The notes beneath the pieces are model-generated. The model saw nothing but the letters and a program-made list of their open reading frames with translations, was not told the DNA's origin and did no database searches. A DNA stretch of 64,000 bases from Pseudoalteromonas rubra (GTDB lineage: Bacteria > Pseudomonadota > Gammaproteobacteria > Enterobacterales > Alteromonadaceae): the NCBI RefSeq assembly GCF_001482385.1, contig NZ_CP013612.1:806001-870000 (forward strand), written 5' to 3'. This document shows, piece by piece, positions 6,839-15,895 of the stretch (its first letter is position 1; each line of letters opens with the position of its first letter). The translations under genes and the position numbers were made by a program.

Positions 6839-7141
6839 ATGAGATTTTTGCTATTTATGGGGTTACTTGCCTCCTTTGCGGGTTTAGCAGGTATGGCAGA
6901 CTGCTCCGATGCTGATAAACGGTTTGTCCATGAGCTGGTCAGTAGCCCTACATTTGAAGAAACAAAAACAAACAGAATGTATAAAGTGAAGCACGGACAA
7001 GTGTGTGTTGTGGGTAATGCATTGGCGACTGACGGTATGCGTTATTATTTGTATAAGATTGGGCCCTCTGCTCGTTATATCGCTGTGCATAACGGGCTGA
7101 GCGGACACGTGCAGATACACGGCCCGTTTAAACCTGAGTGA
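6839..7141 (+). CDS. small secreted hypothetical protein
   Basis: A 100-residue protein with a clear signal peptide (MRFLLFMGLLASFAGLAGMA, cleavage near residue 20) and a mature part of about 80 residues containing two cysteines, which could form one disulfide in the periplasm. I do not recognise a family. The ATG at 6839 gives the proper signal peptide; a TTG four codons earlier is in frame but unlikely. It is divergent from the RND efflux operon and shares its 77-bp control region, including the candidate Fur box. It ends 4 bases before the converging SDR gene. Confidence 0.6.
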   Translation: MRFLLFMGLLASFAGLAGMADCSDADKRFVHELVSSPTFEETKTNRMYKVKHGQVCVVGNALATDGMRYYLYKIGPSARYIAVHNGLSGHVQIHGPFKPE

Positions 7142-7145
7142 TCTA

Positions 7146-7853
7146 CTACCAGGTAATCGCAGAACCATCATAACTATAAAACCCCCCGCTGTCTGATGCC
7201 TGTTTGCTCTGTATTAGATCTGTCAGGCTCTGTGCCACAAAATCGGCAGAAAAAAGCTTGCCGGGTGGCACATTTTTCTGAAAAGGCACGGATAAGGCGG
7301 TATCGGTTGTACCTGGGTGGAAAGCCAGGACGCAGCAATTAGGCAGTTTATAACGCCACTCAATACTGATGGTTTTAAGCGCCATGTTCAGTGCCGCTTT
7401 GGCGCTGCGGTAACTGATCCATCCACCCAGCTGATTATCTGAAATGCTACCGATCCGGGCTGACAGAGCAACGAAGTAAGTCGGGTGTTTTGCTTTCAGT
7501 GCTTTTGCAAAGTGCTTGGCCAATAACAGCGTTGGGAGCGTATTGGCTTTGAGGTTGTCGTTGAAAAAGTCAGGGTCAAATTCCTGAATAGATTTCTCTG
7601 GGAGCTTGTTGGGCGTGTGTAGCAGTCCGGTGGCATTTATGAGCACATCGACTTCAGGCAGCTGCGCAGCCAAAGCTCTGACGTTGTCTTCCTGGCTTAC
7701 ATCGAGGTGGAACCATTGGACGTTTTGCGGTGTTATTTCGGGTCTGGAGGTTCGGTAGGTCGCGTATATGTGGGCTTCGGGTTGCTCACTGGCATAGTGA
7801 TTAACCAGTGCTCTCCCTATGCCGCCTGATCCGCCTACAATCAGTATGATCAT
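7146..7853 (-). CDS. short-chain dehydrogenase/reductase (SDR)
   Basis: A 235-residue classical SDR with the N-terminal Rossmann nucleotide motif 'GGSGGIGRAL' (residues 7-16), 'NATGLL' corresponding to the NNAG strand motif, a Ser in 'ALSARIGS', and the catalytic Tyr-x-x-x-Lys seen as 'YRSAK' near residue 152. It resembles the C-factor/CsgA-like short SDRs. Substrate unknown. Its upstream region carries the ten-copy GATC/TTTACTAAC repeat array, which begins about 80 bases before its start, so that array may be its long-range control region. Confidence 0.85.
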   Translation of the reverse strand: MIILIVGGSGGIGRALVNHYASEQPEAHIYATYRTSRPEITPQNVQWFHLDVSQEDNVRALAAQLPEVDVLINATGLLHTPNKLPEKSIQEFDPDFFNDNLKANTLPTLLLAKHFAKALKAKHPTYFVALSARIGSISDNQLGGWISYRSAKAALNMALKTISIEWRYKLPNCCVLAFHPGTTDTALSVPFQKNVPPGKLFSADFVAQSLTDLIQSKQASDSGGFYSYDGSAITW

Positions 7854-7931
7854 TTGCTTTCCCCTGCGCTGATTACTCTAATTTATTGCTTTTATTAAAC
7901 GGGCATTCCCGAGAATTGGATCTGTTCAGTG

Positions 7932-8391
7932 AGATCGAGTTTTTACTAACTCAGTCAGTATGGCTGTTATCCGTAACGCTTGTGAGTCTTCAGATCGTTA
8001 TTTTACTAACTGGAGTGTTCTACTGGATCACGTATTAACTAACGTTATCGTCATCCAGATCAAAGTATTACTAACTTACCCCTGCTCAGATCACGAATTT
8101 ACTAACAGTGAAGGCATTTTGGCAGGTTTCTGGCCACTGGGTCGTTATTGTTGGCTGTTGTGGCTATATTTAGGTGCTCAGATGGCGAGTAAACCAAGTT
8201 TATGGTAGCCATAGATCATCATTTTACTAACTACTTGATAAAGTGAACAGCCTTTAGATCAGTAATTTACTAAGTGATTTTGTCTTCAGATCGTAATTTT
8301 ACTAACTGAGAAGCGCTATTTGGGGTCAGAGATCATCATTTTACTAACACTTGAAGTACACAGCGTCATACAGAGCAGGTTTTTTACTAAG
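7932..8391 (+). repeat. array of ten phased AGATC...TTTACTAAC repeats
   Basis: Ten same-orientation copies of AGATC-RNNWW-TTTACTAAC start at 7932, 7992, 8025, 8057, 8088, 8213, 8256, 8288, 8330 and 8372. The AGATC block (GGATC in copy 3, AGAGC in copy 10) and ACTAAC block (ACTAAG in copies 7 and 10) are conserved, while the middle five bases vary. Nine copies contain GATC, the Dam methylation site. Copy 10 has one extra T. The DNA between copies is unique. Start-to-start steps are 60, 33, 32, 31, 125, 43, 32, 42 and 42 bases; all but the first are close to whole multiples of 10.5 bp, so copies 2-10 face the same side of the helix. This is the architecture of an operator, iteron or SeqA-type protein array, not of a CRISPR or coding repeat. 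The binding protein is unknown. Confidence 0.9.
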
Positions 8392-8522
8392 AGTCGGGTG
8401 AATCTAAAGTGGGTGAGAGAGATATGAGCGGGATCTTTAATCAAGTTGGTAAATTTTTGCTCCAATAGGTTGGAAAATATACCGAGTTGTTGTATCTATG
8501 TGTTTGATTTATCGATTTAATA

Positions 8523-8545
8523 GGGGCTGAACTTGGCTCAGCCCC
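8523..8545 (-). terminator. hairpin terminator of the PepSY operon
   Basis: Eight-bp inverted repeat GGGGCTGA / TCAGCCCC with a 7-base loop directly after the stop of the DUF3325 gene (minus strand), followed by an AT-rich stretch. Confidence 0.75.
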
Positions 8546-8551
8546 TGACTA

Positions 8552-8884
8552 TTATAAAGTGGCAAGCACAACCGCAATAAGTGTGGTTGCGGGGAGTAGG
8601 TAAAATAATGATCTCACCCAGTTAGGCCGGAAGGACAGTACGATTGCCAGCAGTAAAACGGCGAGGGCCATCTGGCCGCAGAACATCAGACTGCCGTAAC
8701 CAACGGCCTGGCTAATATCGACAGCCAGAGTTAGTAAAAGCATGATCCATGCTGCAAGCAGATATCGTTTACTCTGAATCTGATCGGGTCTTGTCCCAAA
8801 TACCGCTTTATAGTGCGGTGTTTTAGCCAGCGCGAAGGCCGTAAAGCTGGACAGGCACAGTAAGGTTGCAATCAGATACATCAT
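8552..8884 (-). CDS. DUF3325-type small membrane protein
   Basis: A 110-residue, very hydrophobic protein with four predicted membrane helices and the 'R/Q..L..AAW..LL.....A' pattern of the DUF3325 family. Members typically sit beside PepSY-domain and DUF3649 proteins in siderophore/TonB-receptor loci, as here. Its start overlaps the PepSY gene's stop by 4 bases, so it is the last gene of a three-gene operon. Function unknown; membrane partner of the PepSY protein is a reasonable inference. Confidence 0.75.
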   Translation of the reverse strand: MMYLIATLLCLSSFTAFALAKTPHYKAVFGTRPDQIQSKRYLLAAWIMLLLTLAVDISQAVGYGSLMFCGQMALAVLLLAIVLSFRPNWVRSLFYLLPATTLIAVVLATL

Positions 8885-10452
8885 GCAGCACGCTCCCTGC
8901 GGGCACGTTGTGGCCGAGCCTGCCGGGCAGGCTGAAGTTTTTTACTTTGCCAGAAGAACACCGCAGCGGCTAACAGAGCCAGTATGTCGAACATGGCCAA
9001 TGGCCACTGAGCGTTGCTAATGTAACGGATTAAATTCCCTTGTGTTGTAAGTGCATTACACAGAGGCAGCATGAGCCAGGCACAGGCATTGGCGAGTGCC
9101 AGGGTGCGCCACCCTTGGGCATTTCGCCATTTAGCGGCAACCAGCGTTGTAGCAGCCCAGGTCAGGAAAAATGCCAGCACTTCCTGGTCGGCACGACCGC
9201 TGTTGCTGACAGGCAGTAGTCGATTGGCGTAGAAGAATGCCGCTGTAGCCAGTGGCAGGCCCATAATGGCAGCTAGGTTGAGTGATTCGACTAGCTTAAG
9301 ACCAAAACTGGCTGGCTGAGTGGGTTTTTGGCGTTCTCGGATCCGTTTGGCCCACATAACGCAGCCACTGGCAATCATAGCGCAGCCTGCCAGTCCACAC
9401 AGAAAGTACAACCAACGCAAGCCGGGGGAAGCCAGGCGCCCGGTGTGCATGGCAATCATACCGCCATATAATTGCGCCGCAGTGCTGTCTTCGAGGTGCA
9501 CAGTATTCAGTAGTTCACCCGTTTGGCCTGAATACAGCCAGACGGCTTGCTCGTCTTTTATTTCACTGCGGTTAGCACCGTAAATTTTCATTACTGCCGC
9601 TGCATCCTGAGGGTGATCTATGATGATGCGCGAAATGGGTTGCTCTGGCCAGTTAGTAAAAAAGTGATCTAGTGACTGTGCGAAAGCCGGATCGGTCAGT
9701 GTCTGATGGCTTAGCTGAGGACGCTGTCGTTCCGGATAAAACGCTTTTCTGAATTCTTTTACCCCATCATCATACACCGTTTGCGCAGGATACGGGAAAA
9801 GCGTAAAAATAAGCGTGATCAGTCCAGTGTAGGTGATCATCAGATGAAATGGCAAAGCCAGCACTGAGCTTAGGTTATGTCCATCCAGCCAACTGCGGCT
9901 GCCCTTGCCAGCCCTGAACTGGAACATATCCTTGAAAATACGTTTGTGGATCACAATGCCTGAAACCAGCGCAACCAGCATAAACAGGCTGGCCAGACAC
10001 ACTATCCAGCGTGCCGTCGTACGGTCCATATAATGTAAGTCAAAATGCAAACGATAAAAGAAGCTCCCGCCTTTTGATTCTCTCGGTGTCACCGGTGTTT
10101 TGCTATCGGCCGCCAGGTTATGGCTGACCCAACTGGCTTTTTCGCCTGGCTCCGCATAGGGCAGGTGCGAGACGCGCAGTAGCGAGTTGCGCTCAGACGG
10201 TAGACTAATCCACCACCTTGCTGCGTCAGGCGCTTCTGTGTTCAGGCGTTCAAAGCCGTAGTCCAGTAGCGCTTGTTGTGAGCTCTGAACTTCAATGCTG
10301 TGGGGGTGCAGCTCAGGCTTGCTCCACAATGTAATTTCCTGACGGAAAAAGCTTAATGTGCCTGCAAAAAACACCAGCCACAACAGCCAGCAAAAAAGTA
10401 ACCCGACCCAGGTATGGAGCCAGGTCATAGAACGAAAAAAACTGTCTTTCAT
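8881..10452 (-). CDS. PepSY-associated membrane protein (PiuB-like)
   Basis: A 523-residue protein from the ATG at 10452 (MKDSFFRSMTWLHTWVG). The first helix with 'TWLHTWVGLLFCWLLW' and the later helices with conserved His residues are the signature of the PepSY-TM family, inner-membrane proteins encoded with TonB-dependent siderophore receptors and thought to reduce or release iron from ferric siderophores in the periplasm. Further helices lie near residues 150-175, 195-220, 320-345 and then a C-terminal set of four. A longer frame reaches 10587 but the extra N-terminus is not family-like and overlaps the upstream gene. It lies 2 bases after that DUF3649 gene and overlaps DUF3325 by 4 bases. 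Confidence 0.85.
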   Translation of the reverse strand: MKDSFFRSMTWLHTWVGLLFCWLLWLVFFAGTLSFFRQEITLWSKPELHPHSIEVQSSQQALLDYGFERLNTEAPDAARWWISLPSERNSLLRVSHLPYAEPGEKASWVSHNLAADSKTPVTPRESKGGSFFYRLHFDLHYMDRTTARWIVCLASLFMLVALVSGIVIHKRIFKDMFQFRAGKGSRSWLDGHNLSSVLALPFHLMITYTGLITLIFTLFPYPAQTVYDDGVKEFRKAFYPERQRPQLSHQTLTDPAFAQSLDHFFTNWPEQPISRIIIDHPQDAAAVMKIYGANRSEIKDEQAVWLYSGQTGELLNTVHLEDSTAAQLYGGMIAMHTGRLASPGLRWLYFLCGLAGCAMIASGCVMWAKRIRERQKPTQPASFGLKLVESLNLAAIMGLPLATAAFFYANRLLPVSNSGRADQEVLAFFLTWAATTLVAAKWRNAQGWRTLALANACAWLMLPLCNALTTQGNLIRYISNAQWPLAMFDILALLAAAVFFWQSKKLQPARQARPQRARRERAA

Positions 10453-10454
10453 TA

Positions 10455-10751
10455 TTATCCTCTTAACATCAGGATCAGCAGCCATTGCACTGTTGCAAGC
10501 AGCAGCAAACCACCACAGAGGAAGCGGAGTGATTTTGTTGCGAATACAGCGATAAAAATAAGGCAGTGAATGAGTACACTCAGGCATACGCTAAATAGCA
10601 CGGCATCCACTTTTGACACTGGTAACAACAAACTCATCAGGCTGATAGAAAGCGCGGTGCATGCATACCCTCCGAAAATAGCGAGAGCAAACCGGGTGAT
10701 AACGTTTATGCGATAGGCTGTAAAGTAAGCAAAGTAGGGCGATAGCGACAT
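10455..10751 (-). CDS. DUF3649-type small membrane protein
   Basis: About 98 residues from the ATG at 10751 (MSLSPYFAYFTAYRINV), with three hydrophobic helices. Length, the 'RFALAIFGGYACTALSISLMSLLLP' segment and position before a PepSY gene fit the DUF3649 (iron-uptake-associated) family. A GTG at 10790 would add 13 residues. First gene of the DUF3649-PepSY-DUF3325 operon; a Fur-like box lies 57 bases upstream of the ATG. Confidence 0.72.
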   Translation of the reverse strand: MSLSPYFAYFTAYRINVITRFALAIFGGYACTALSISLMSLLLPVSKVDAVLFSVCLSVLIHCLIFIAVFATKSLRFLCGGLLLLATVQWLLILMLRG

Positions 10752-10807
10752 ACTTGTTCTTTGATCAAAAATAGGGAGGCGAATTATCACTGAATCGCGC
10801 TATAAAT

Positions 10808-10826
10808 AACAGTAATTATCATTAGC
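10808..10826 (-). promoter_or_regulatory. candidate Fur box of the PepSY operon
   Basis: On the minus strand the 19-mer GCTAATGATAATTACTGTT matches 13 of 19 consensus Fur positions, with an intact central AATGATAAT. Its place in front of an iron-type operon makes regulation by Fur likely. Confidence 0.6.
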
Positions 10827-10984
10827 AAATGCGTTAAATGTACAATTATTAATGCCAAAAGGAATATCAAATTCCTGTTGGATTAAGCTCTGGATATTTA
10901 GTGACCGCACTCGTGCACTCTTTTATTGGGCTACAGGCTGATATACTTACCTGGGTTTATTGCGTTGTGAGGAGAAGTATAAAC

Positions 10985-11554
10985 GTGGATATCATTGAGC
11001 GTGTCCGGCGATGCACTCTATGTCGGGGACAATTGCCTTTCGAACCCAGACCTGTGATCCAGGGATTGCCAGCTGCGAAAATTCTGATTGCCGGTCAGGC
11101 CCCCAGCTTGAGTGTGCAAAAAACCGGTAAGCCGTTTAACGATGCCAGTGGTAAACGGCTTAGAGAATGGTTAGGGGTCACAGAGGCTCAGTTTTATGAT
11201 CCGACTTTATTCGCGATTATACCTATGGCTTTTTGTTACCCTGGTAAGGGTAAATCTGGCGACTTACCACCACCCAAAATCTGCGCGCAGACATGGCGGG
11301 TGTCTTTGCTTGAGGTATTCAATAACATTGAGTTAACTATCTTGATTGGCCAATATGCACAAAGCTATCATATAGCTGATTTTGTTAGTGTGTCTCAAGC
11401 GGTGACCGAATGGAGGACTGGCTTACCGGGGCAAATCGCATTGCCACATCCCAGCCCACGTAATCAATTATGGGTTCGAAAACGTCCCTGGTTTGAGGCT
11501 GAAGTGTTACCTGTATTAAGAACTCGAGTTCGGGAGGTGTTGTTGTCTTTTTAA
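10985..11554 (+). CDS. uracil-DNA glycosylase family protein with probable Fe-S cluster
   Basis: A 189-residue protein from a GTG at 10985, chosen because GAGGAGAAG lies just before it and the upstream in-frame extension is not family-like. It shows the UDG-superfamily motif 'GQAPS' (residues 37-41) in place of GEAPG, a conserved Asn/Asp loop ('KPFNDASGKRL') and the C-terminal 'LPHPSPRN' with the catalytic-loop His. Four cysteines at about 10, 13, 84 and 100 have the CxxC...C-x15-C spacing of family 4/5 UDGs, where they bind a 4Fe-4S cluster. It would remove uracil or another deaminated base from DNA, or act on a related substrate. Confidence 0.82.
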   Translation: MDIIERVRRCTLCRGQLPFEPRPVIQGLPAAKILIAGQAPSLSVQKTGKPFNDASGKRLREWLGVTEAQFYDPTLFAIIPMAFCYPGKGKSGDLPPPKICAQTWRVSLLEVFNNIELTILIGQYAQSYHIADFVSVSQAVTEWRTGLPGQIALPHPSPRNQLWVRKRPWFEAEVLPVLRTRVREVLLSF

Positions 11555-14881: not shown

Positions 14882-15811
14882 ATGAAACATTTGCCTAATT
14901 TGGATCTTAATCTGCTTAAACTGTTTGCTGTTTTGTATCAGAATGGCTCAGTTACGCTCTCTGCCGAGCAGCTGAATCTCAGTCAGTCTGCATGTAGTCA
15001 CGCACTGACCCGGCTCCGGGAGCGCCTGGGTGATGAACTGTTTGTGCGGGTGAATAATCGTATGTTGGCAACCGCGCATGCACATCGACTGGCAAAGACC
15101 GTGTTGCCAGCGTTGCAGATGCTGGAGGGAGGCCTGCAAGAAGCCAGCCCGTTTGATGCAAATGAACCTCATACGCTGACGATTGCGGTAACGGATTATA
15201 CTGCCTGGTGTCTGCGGCCTTTTGTAGCTCATTTGGTTAGCCTGTTTGAAAATCTGGATATCCGTTTTGTTCAGCTTGAAGAACGCATTGCAGAGCAAGC
15301 TCTGAAAGAGGAAAGTCTGGATCTGGTATGCGGGTTTGCACATCAGCAGGAGTTTTCTGAGAGCCTGACCCAGCTTAGCTGGTTTGAGGATGCCTACGTG
15401 ACAGTGCGTTGTCAGTCTCACCCATGCAAAAAACAAATAGATCTGAGTACTTTTATTGCATATCCGCATATTTTGATTGCGCCATGGAACGAGCGTCGGG
15501 GAATAGTTGACAGAGCACTGGCAAAAATTAAGAAATCCAGAACCATTGCAGTGACAACCCCACATGTGTTGGTGGCACCAACGTTGCTACCAGAGAGTGA
15601 TATGTTGCTGACTATGCCCAGGCGTTATGCCTTGCAGGTGTGTGACAGATTACACCTTCAGTTACAGCCACCGCCGCTTCCGGTGCCTGATTACCAGCTG
15701 AAGTTGTACTGGCACCGGACGCGCAAGCGCGATCCTAAGATTGGCTGGTTTATTACTCAGTTCTGCGACTTTCATGAGCTAGAACATGACGAGGCCAAGT
15801 TAGTAAAATAG
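14882..15811 (+). CDS. LysR family transcriptional regulator
   Basis: A 309-residue LysR protein. The N-terminal winged helix-turn-helix covers about residues 7-66 ('LNLLKLFAVLYQNGSVTLSAEQLNLSQSACSHALTRLRERLGDELFVR'), followed by a linker helix and the periplasmic-binding-like effector domain. The HTH resembles the NodD/ToxR-like subgroup beginning 'DLNLLKLF'. It is divergent from a GNAT gene, its most likely target. Effector unknown. Confidence 0.9.
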   Translation: MKHLPNLDLNLLKLFAVLYQNGSVTLSAEQLNLSQSACSHALTRLRERLGDELFVRVNNRMLATAHAHRLAKTVLPALQMLEGGLQEASPFDANEPHTLTIAVTDYTAWCLRPFVAHLVSLFENLDIRFVQLEERIAEQALKEESLDLVCGFAHQQEFSESLTQLSWFEDAYVTVRCQSHPCKKQIDLSTFIAYPHILIAPWNERRGIVDRALAKIKKSRTIAVTTPHVLVAPTLLPESDMLLTMPRRYALQVCDRLHLQLQPPPLPVPDYQLKLYWHRTRKRDPKIGWFITQFCDFHELEHDEAKLVK

Positions 15812-15895
15812 TGATCTGTTAACTGACGCCGTGAATACAGATATGCTCGCTGAAATGTCTAATTTAGTTTATATAATTCAATGTTTTAATTTAGA

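Follow-up and report, generated by a model that had tools for sequence, protein, structure and literature searches.

The stretch analyzed here, called the window, is a 64,000-nucleotide segment of the Pseudoalteromonas rubra chromid (G000:C2:806001-870000; the chromid, C2, has 1,311,023 bp, and the genome has 5.91 Mb in three contigs). It carries an array of short repeats at 7932-8391 on the forward strand, made up of nine same-strand GATC-N5-TTTACTAAC sites, six exact and three with one mismatch. An earlier note on this DNA had described ten same-direction copies, nine of them with GATC, and this description was confirmed; the tenth copy lacks GATC. The start-to-start steps of the ten copies were 60, 33, 32, 31, 125, 43, 32, 42, and 43 bp. 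The note had also placed the steps close to whole helical turns, and the phasing stood when it was checked against random placements, but the note had omitted the first step of 60 bp, which corresponds to 5.7 turns and is off-phase, and the last step proved to be 43 bp. For comparison, sites were placed at random 4000 times over the same span with gaps of at least 28, and the best period between 10 and 11 was taken. The phase coherence of the nine sites (R=0.88, at 10.5 bp) was equalled in 0.25% of these placements; for ten sites R was 0.86, which was equalled in 0.075% of random placements. The window as a whole contained 30 motif matches at up to three mismatches, whereas 100 shuffled versions contained 13.4 on average and fewer than 30 in every case. 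The array stretch was gene-free, as had been claimed, with respect to genes of annotated size, but a mechanically called open reading frame (ORF) of 82 amino acids at 7960-8208 overlaps it. Rfam gave no matches in 7000-9700. When the same segment was compared with plasmid records by nucleotide similarity, eight records matched at 60-80% identity, and none of them covered the array (query positions 932-1392).

The distribution of the motif in the genome was then determined. Exact GATC-N5-TTTACTAAC sites numbered 14 genome-wide, all in C2:749585-821816 (72 kb), and the reversed pattern gave none; at one mismatch the genome contained 30 matches, 22 of them within this segment, and the reversed pattern gave four. 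The gap between repA (C2:748303-749517, reverse strand) and parA (from 750219, forward strand) was filled by seven motif copies with at most two mismatches, and the tus gene (C2:744021-744857) lies beside it. This layout agrees with the ori2 module of Pseudoalteromonas chromids, in which repA and ori2 form the minimal replicon according to the part of PMC7858055 that describes it, and the repA-parA gap is the chromid origin, ori2. The window array lies 64 kb from it. Five to nine motif copies (at most two mismatches, both strands) were present within 1 kb upstream of repA in all 30 oriented loci. SeqA alone does not explain the conserved second half of the motif, as the earlier note had argued. 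This half, TTTACTAAC, was found at ori2 beside repA, with diverged versions beside repA of related plasmids. Plasmids whose RepA is 47-49% identical to the chromid RepA had their own diverged GATC (Dam) repeats upstream of repA in 8/8 readable loci, so repeat and initiator have changed in parallel. The predicted fold of the chromid RepA matched RctB, Pi, and RepE (two-winged-helix Rep fold), and its closest solved fold was the Vibrio initiator. RepA had no Pfam match at E<=1, and a search of PDB sequences gave three matches (best E 0.018) with unrelated names, none of them meaningful. Because the repA genes of related plasmids carry diverged repeats and the RepA fold matches RctB, Pi, and RepE, the repeats were read as RepA iterons; this is the most likely identity, and we infer that RepA binds them.

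The exact motif was present in 108/108 Pseudoalteromonas genomes searched for it (site positions were obtained for the first genomes only), and the reversed pattern occurred zero or one time in each, 11 times in total. In a scan of one genome per species (84,980 species, which may omit near relatives of the genome of the window), pairs of exact copies at most 30 bp apart were found in 51 stretches, all titled Pseudoalteromonas. Across 16 complete chromids, 141/141 exact sites were on the parAB side of repA, 40 of them within 5 kb, 95 at 5-135 kb, and six at up to 199 kb. The motif did not turn out to be a widely scattered repeat with random spacing, which the earlier note had held against its own reading: the sites were limited to the origin-proximal chromid and one main-chromosome locus, and they were phased when pooled.

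On the main chromosome the motif was first visible as an inverted pair in some genomes. The site is non-coding DNA between the class II fructose-bisphosphate aldolase gene (fba) and a phoB-like gene, which is followed by phoR, and in some genomes a porin gene lies between; the phoB-like gene was matched in 108/108 genomes. The fba-phoB loci of 59 distinct genomes of the 108 were read. All 59 had a cluster of at least three copies (at most two mismatches, both strands) within 450 bp, and the same criterion picked out no window in 59 chromid stretches taken as background. The typical layout has two sets of three copies, opposite in direction, with steps of 30-32 and a 105- or 136-bp gap. In 22 oriented loci pairwise identity was 90.5% in motif columns versus 52.8% elsewhere, the motif columns having been chosen by motif presence, which is a bias favouring them. 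The base before GATC was G in 79/107 fba-phoB copies versus A in 65/89 ori2 copies. In 12 complete genomes, 6/14 exact main-chromosome matches fell in the fba-phoB cluster and the other eight were isolated. Genome G003 (L076, L121), a single contig with no RepA or ParB match, still has the fba-phoB cluster; the chromid may be absent from the assembly or from the strain.

We also analyzed the neighbourhood of the array in other chromids. The distal locus was syntenic in 16/19 chromids, where at least one gene of the ORF8552-PepSY-ORF10455-UDG-GNAT-LysR block was common with the window (20 loci were fetched and L232, with ori2 only, was dropped; the stretches were 6-20 kb, so absence means local absence). 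Thus the lack of conservation in relatives that the earlier note had allowed for was not found. The gene names of the block are partly putative, assigned from the sequences, and the PepSY label was taken from annotation. In other species the motif clusters lie in or adjoin the conserved part of the block listed in Table 1. The three loci without block genes were those of G043, G099, and G060, the same three chromids that have a two-way GC skew. Adjacent steps below 160 bp were pooled from eight arrays (57 steps), with G002, G051, and G099 excluded as near copies; related arrays do not count as independent. These steps peaked at 30-33, 40-43, and 50-53 bp, and their mean cosine was 0.69 for a period of 10.5 bp and 0.74 for one of 10.4 bp. 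Single arrays of at least five copies ranged from R=0.98 (G040) and 0.95 (G011) down to the values for G010 and G002 given below.

Table 1. Repeat copies and conserved neighbouring genes, in window positions
Feature	Position	Strand	Content
Distal array, GATC-N5-TTTACTAA[C/G]-type copies	7932..8391; starts 7933, 7993, 8026, 8058, 8089, 8214, 8257, 8289, 8331	+	
Tenth array copy, without GATC	8374-8391 (TTTACTAAG at 8383)	+	
Degenerate copy, 2 mismatches, near 3' end of ORF 8552-8884	8596..8613	-	
Exact copy within ORF 8552-8884	8730..8747	-	
Exact copy within PepSY-type gene 8881-10587	9652..9669	-	
Exact copy over 3' end of LysR-type gene 14882-15811	15799..15816	-	
Conserved neighbour block	8552..11554		ORF 8552-8884 (-), PepSY-type 8881-10587 (-), ORF 10455-10790 (-), UDG-like 10901-11554 (+)

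Two of the exact copies, those at 8730-8747 and 9652-9669, sit within coding sequence. In G107 a second cluster of four exact copies (G107:C2:479763-479991) was found 184 kb from ori2, besides one at 75 kb.

The direction of replication was read from GC skew. In the chromid of the window, 38/40 samples had a positive skew, the sole negative region being 736-756 kb, which surrounds ori2 (749.5-750.2 kb). This pattern fits a single fork that heads from ori2 in the direction of the array and terminates directly behind the origin, so that the array is copied early. One-way replication is reported for most Pseudoalteromonas chromids, and two-way chromids are reported at 1.60-1.67 Mb, in the part of PMC7858055 that deals with replication mode. 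The chromid of G060 (G060:C2, L234-L244) had a two-way GC skew at 1.32 Mb, a size below that range.

A single iteron-like motif with a Dam site occurs in three places: ori2, the chromid locus that includes the window array, which is mostly syntenic and copied early, and a conserved locus on the main chromosome. We consider the window array to be probably an off-origin cluster of Dam-site RepA iterons that acts as an early-copied RepA sink, with the fba-phoB cluster as a candidate crtS-like timer; from the above we infer titration by the former and timing by the latter. Once the fork has travelled about 64 kb from ori2, the array would be duplicated and would then take up RepA. Its GATCs would be hemimethylated for a time, and the array would help to keep ori2 from re-firing, as a datA-like sink of the kind proposed for the off-origin RctB iterons of Vibrio cholerae. 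The fba-phoB cluster would be the partner element, whose replication, 0.54-0.93 Mb from oriC, may license ori2 after the fork has moved on by some 130-450 kb, with the outcome that both replicons would finish together. Of the functions proposed in the earlier note, a Dam-sensitive titration or replication locus is the one favoured by the evidence, and an enhancer of the SDR gene is not supported.

The position of the main-chromosome cluster was compared with the timing expected if both replicons terminate together. The distance of the fba-phoB cluster from dnaA was 544-925 kb in 17 complete genomes (positions to about 1 kb). The predicted chromid firing point was set at L1/2 minus the chromid replication length, with both replicons ending together and ter1 set opposite oriC. 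The replication mode was checked by skew in 8/17 genomes (the genome of the window, G030, G040, G044, and G107 one-way; G043, G060, and G099 two-way), and the other nine were assumed to be one-way. The cluster was ahead of the predicted firing point in 17/17 genomes, by 131-452 kb (mean 299; G043, G060, and G099 as two-way). The delay of V. cholerae crtS is worth about 200 kb, in the portion of PMC6090056 that treats it. When the cluster distance was regressed over the 17 genomes, the coefficient of L1/2 was +0.59 (p=0.0002) and that of chromid replication length was -0.47 (p=0.0023). Both signs agree with the prediction; their strength depends partly on G060, and phylogeny is uncorrected. The distance from site to terminus correlated with chromid replication length (r=0.91), but both of these are also correlated with the length of the main chromosome (r=0.81 and 0.90), which weakens the link. 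If G060 is one-way it is an exception (-206 kb). GC skew gives it two arms; the reassignment was post hoc, based on a skew that is independent of the site but was prompted by the misfit.

On balance we lean towards a checkpoint between the chromosomes that is Pseudoalteromonas' own, in which RepA would read one Dam-site iteron at ori2, at the chromid sink, and at an fba-phoB timer that is shifted with the replicon sizes. Several results weigh against the reading of the array and the fba-phoB cluster given above. Four plasmid loci with RepA 28-43% identical had few GATC repeats, none of them clear. The fba-phoB cluster of the window's own genome (C1:2127784-2128165) is degenerate, with seven sites, one with one mismatch, six with two, and none exact. 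When G051, G043, and G060 were left out of the regression (n=14), the chromid-length term was -0.34 with p=0.11. Among 11 direct-repeat arrays some were unphased (G002, R=0.19; G010, R=0.29). The complete chromids of G005, G012, G015, G022, G036, G054, and G067 lack a long direct array at this locus and have paired or scattered copies instead; therefore the tandem array is not essential. Finally, a main-chromosome cluster built of iterons could be a sink, and firing would therefore be delayed and not triggered.

In the strongest rival explanation, which we regard as rather unlikely, the off-origin RepA sites would be purely inhibitory, the array and the main-chromosome cluster being sinks or handcuffing sites that set copy number, with no trigger. 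Off-origin iterons inhibit in plasmids and in V. cholerae chrII, in the sections of PMC3937223 concerned, and the main-chromosome copies are iteron-like, unlike Vibrio crtS. However, the main-chromosome cluster has a conserved inverted layout and the base preference of its own described above, and its position leads the predicted firing point in every one of the 17 genomes. It is improbable that the repeats are parS2 centromere sites for ParB2, with the ori2, distal, and main-chromosome copies organising segregation or tethering the chromosomes. parS sites are often spread beside parAB, and the motif sites do lie between repA and parAB and across the first ~135 kb beside parAB. However, the motif is asymmetric and not palindromic, and on plasmids the repeat clusters track repA: the chromid ParB had a weak match in 3/15 loci, and of these three just L180 carries a repeat cluster.

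The copies were also considered as Ter sites at which a chromid-encoded Tus would block forks, which is very improbable. The tus gene adjoins ori2, and ACTAA is common to the motif and the E. coli Ter core. According to PMC7858055 and PMC10331603, Ter sites have not been identified in the genus. However, Ter is polar, yet copies face both ways at ori2 and on the main chromosome, and of 11 direct arrays four read away from ori2 and seven towards it, all in the fork path. No Tus match was found in 15 plasmid stretches, and plasmid C3, the third contig, encodes a second, diverged Tus relative (C3:25988-26716, 101.8 bits), yet has no motif at up to one mismatch. On the evidence of orientation the motif is not ter. 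Orientation and position both speak against a Tus/Ter fork barrier, which was rejected without a search for the E. coli Ter consensus. It is hardly credible that the array serves to control the neighbouring SDR gene or is nothing more than a platform for SeqA: the array is upstream of the SDR start and SeqA is encoded in the genome, but the SDR gene stands beside the cluster only in G051, a close relative, among 20 loci, a synteny result on which the enhancer was rejected, and SeqA requires GATC pairs, not TTTACTAAC.

The proposed checkpoint was compared with known systems, each as described in parts of the papers cited. According to PMC3937223, ori2 of V. cholerae is inhibited through titration by RctB iterons located some 40 kb or farther from it, and the paper emphasizes that these iterons are duplicated early; RctB binds iterons only when both strands are methylated (PMC11711613). 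The off-origin RctB iterons of V. cholerae chrII (Baek and Chattoraj, 2014; PMC3937223) resemble the present repeats as initiator-type Dam iterons that lie off but near the origin of a secondary chromosome and are copied early. However, the RctB sites are scattered singles, whereas Pseudoalteromonas often has a syntenic, tandem, phased array of 6-9 copies with another motif and another initiator, whose binding is presumed. Vibrionaceae crtS (PMC3937223, PMC6090056, PMC5854411) resembles the fba-phoB cluster in occupying a single conserved non-coding site of the main chromosome that precedes chromid firing, for the cluster the predicted firing point, and a shift of its distance with replicon sizes towards synchronous termination may be common to both; in contrast, the candidate timer of Pseudoalteromonas consists of copies of the chromid iteron arranged as two inverted sets. 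RepE/Pi/RctB-type iterons are also direct repeats next to rep, with an initiator modelled in that fold, but the Pseudoalteromonas steps are 31-43 bp with unique DNA between, and there are remote clusters on two replicons. The datA locus of E. coli (PMC3937223) is likewise a group of initiator sites near the origin that is proposed to limit re-initiation; it differs in initiator and sites, and no role in nucleotide hydrolysis is implied for the Pseudoalteromonas array.

A 2021 study measured the synchronous termination of the Pseudoalteromonas chromid. In the corresponding parts of that paper (PMC7858055) a trigger on the main chromosome was thought possible, similarity searches by Xie et al. 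for Vibrio crtS and E. coli ter in Pseudoalteromonas found nothing, no crtS-like site was given, and the mechanism was left for later. A 2026 survey, in the part that covers timers, still treats those beyond Vibrio and Agrobacterium as open (PMC13342612). The fba-phoB cluster is a candidate for the trigger considered by Xie et al. No published description of these repeats was found in the open-licence literature, a search outside which lie the supplement of PMC7858055 (minimal-replicon figure S3) and Medigue 2005. The motif supplies the coordinates of the ori2 repeats, the distal locus, and the candidate timer in dozens of genomes of a genus with both one-way and two-way chromids; such coordinates therefore make the question directly testable and invite comparison with Vibrio. 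If the proposal is true, repeats shared by both chromosomes would offer an idea of how the copying of both stays in step, by a device built differently from Vibrio crtS.

Some variant copies and loci were also recorded. The plasmid NZ_CP027525.1 of P. carrageenovora (L092; RepA 48.6% identical) has chromid-type GATC-N5-TTTACTAAG at 1905, 2156, and 2409, downstream of repA; these copies are unlike those of other plasmids, and cross-talk with the chromid is possible. At G031:C7:471413-472625, in a draft genome, the chromid repA is in two overlapping pieces, from either a real break or an assembly error. At C2:762824-762935 (reverse strand) four copies at 31-32-bp steps retain TTTAC(T/C)AA and have lost GATC, possibly a Dam-independent class of sites. 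An extra motif cluster lies between parB and a helicase gene, ~3 kb from ori2, at L094:2709-3011 (NZ_CP133570.1), and exact copies 3.0-3.2 kb from ori2 were also present in G005, G012, G015, G022, G036, and G067.
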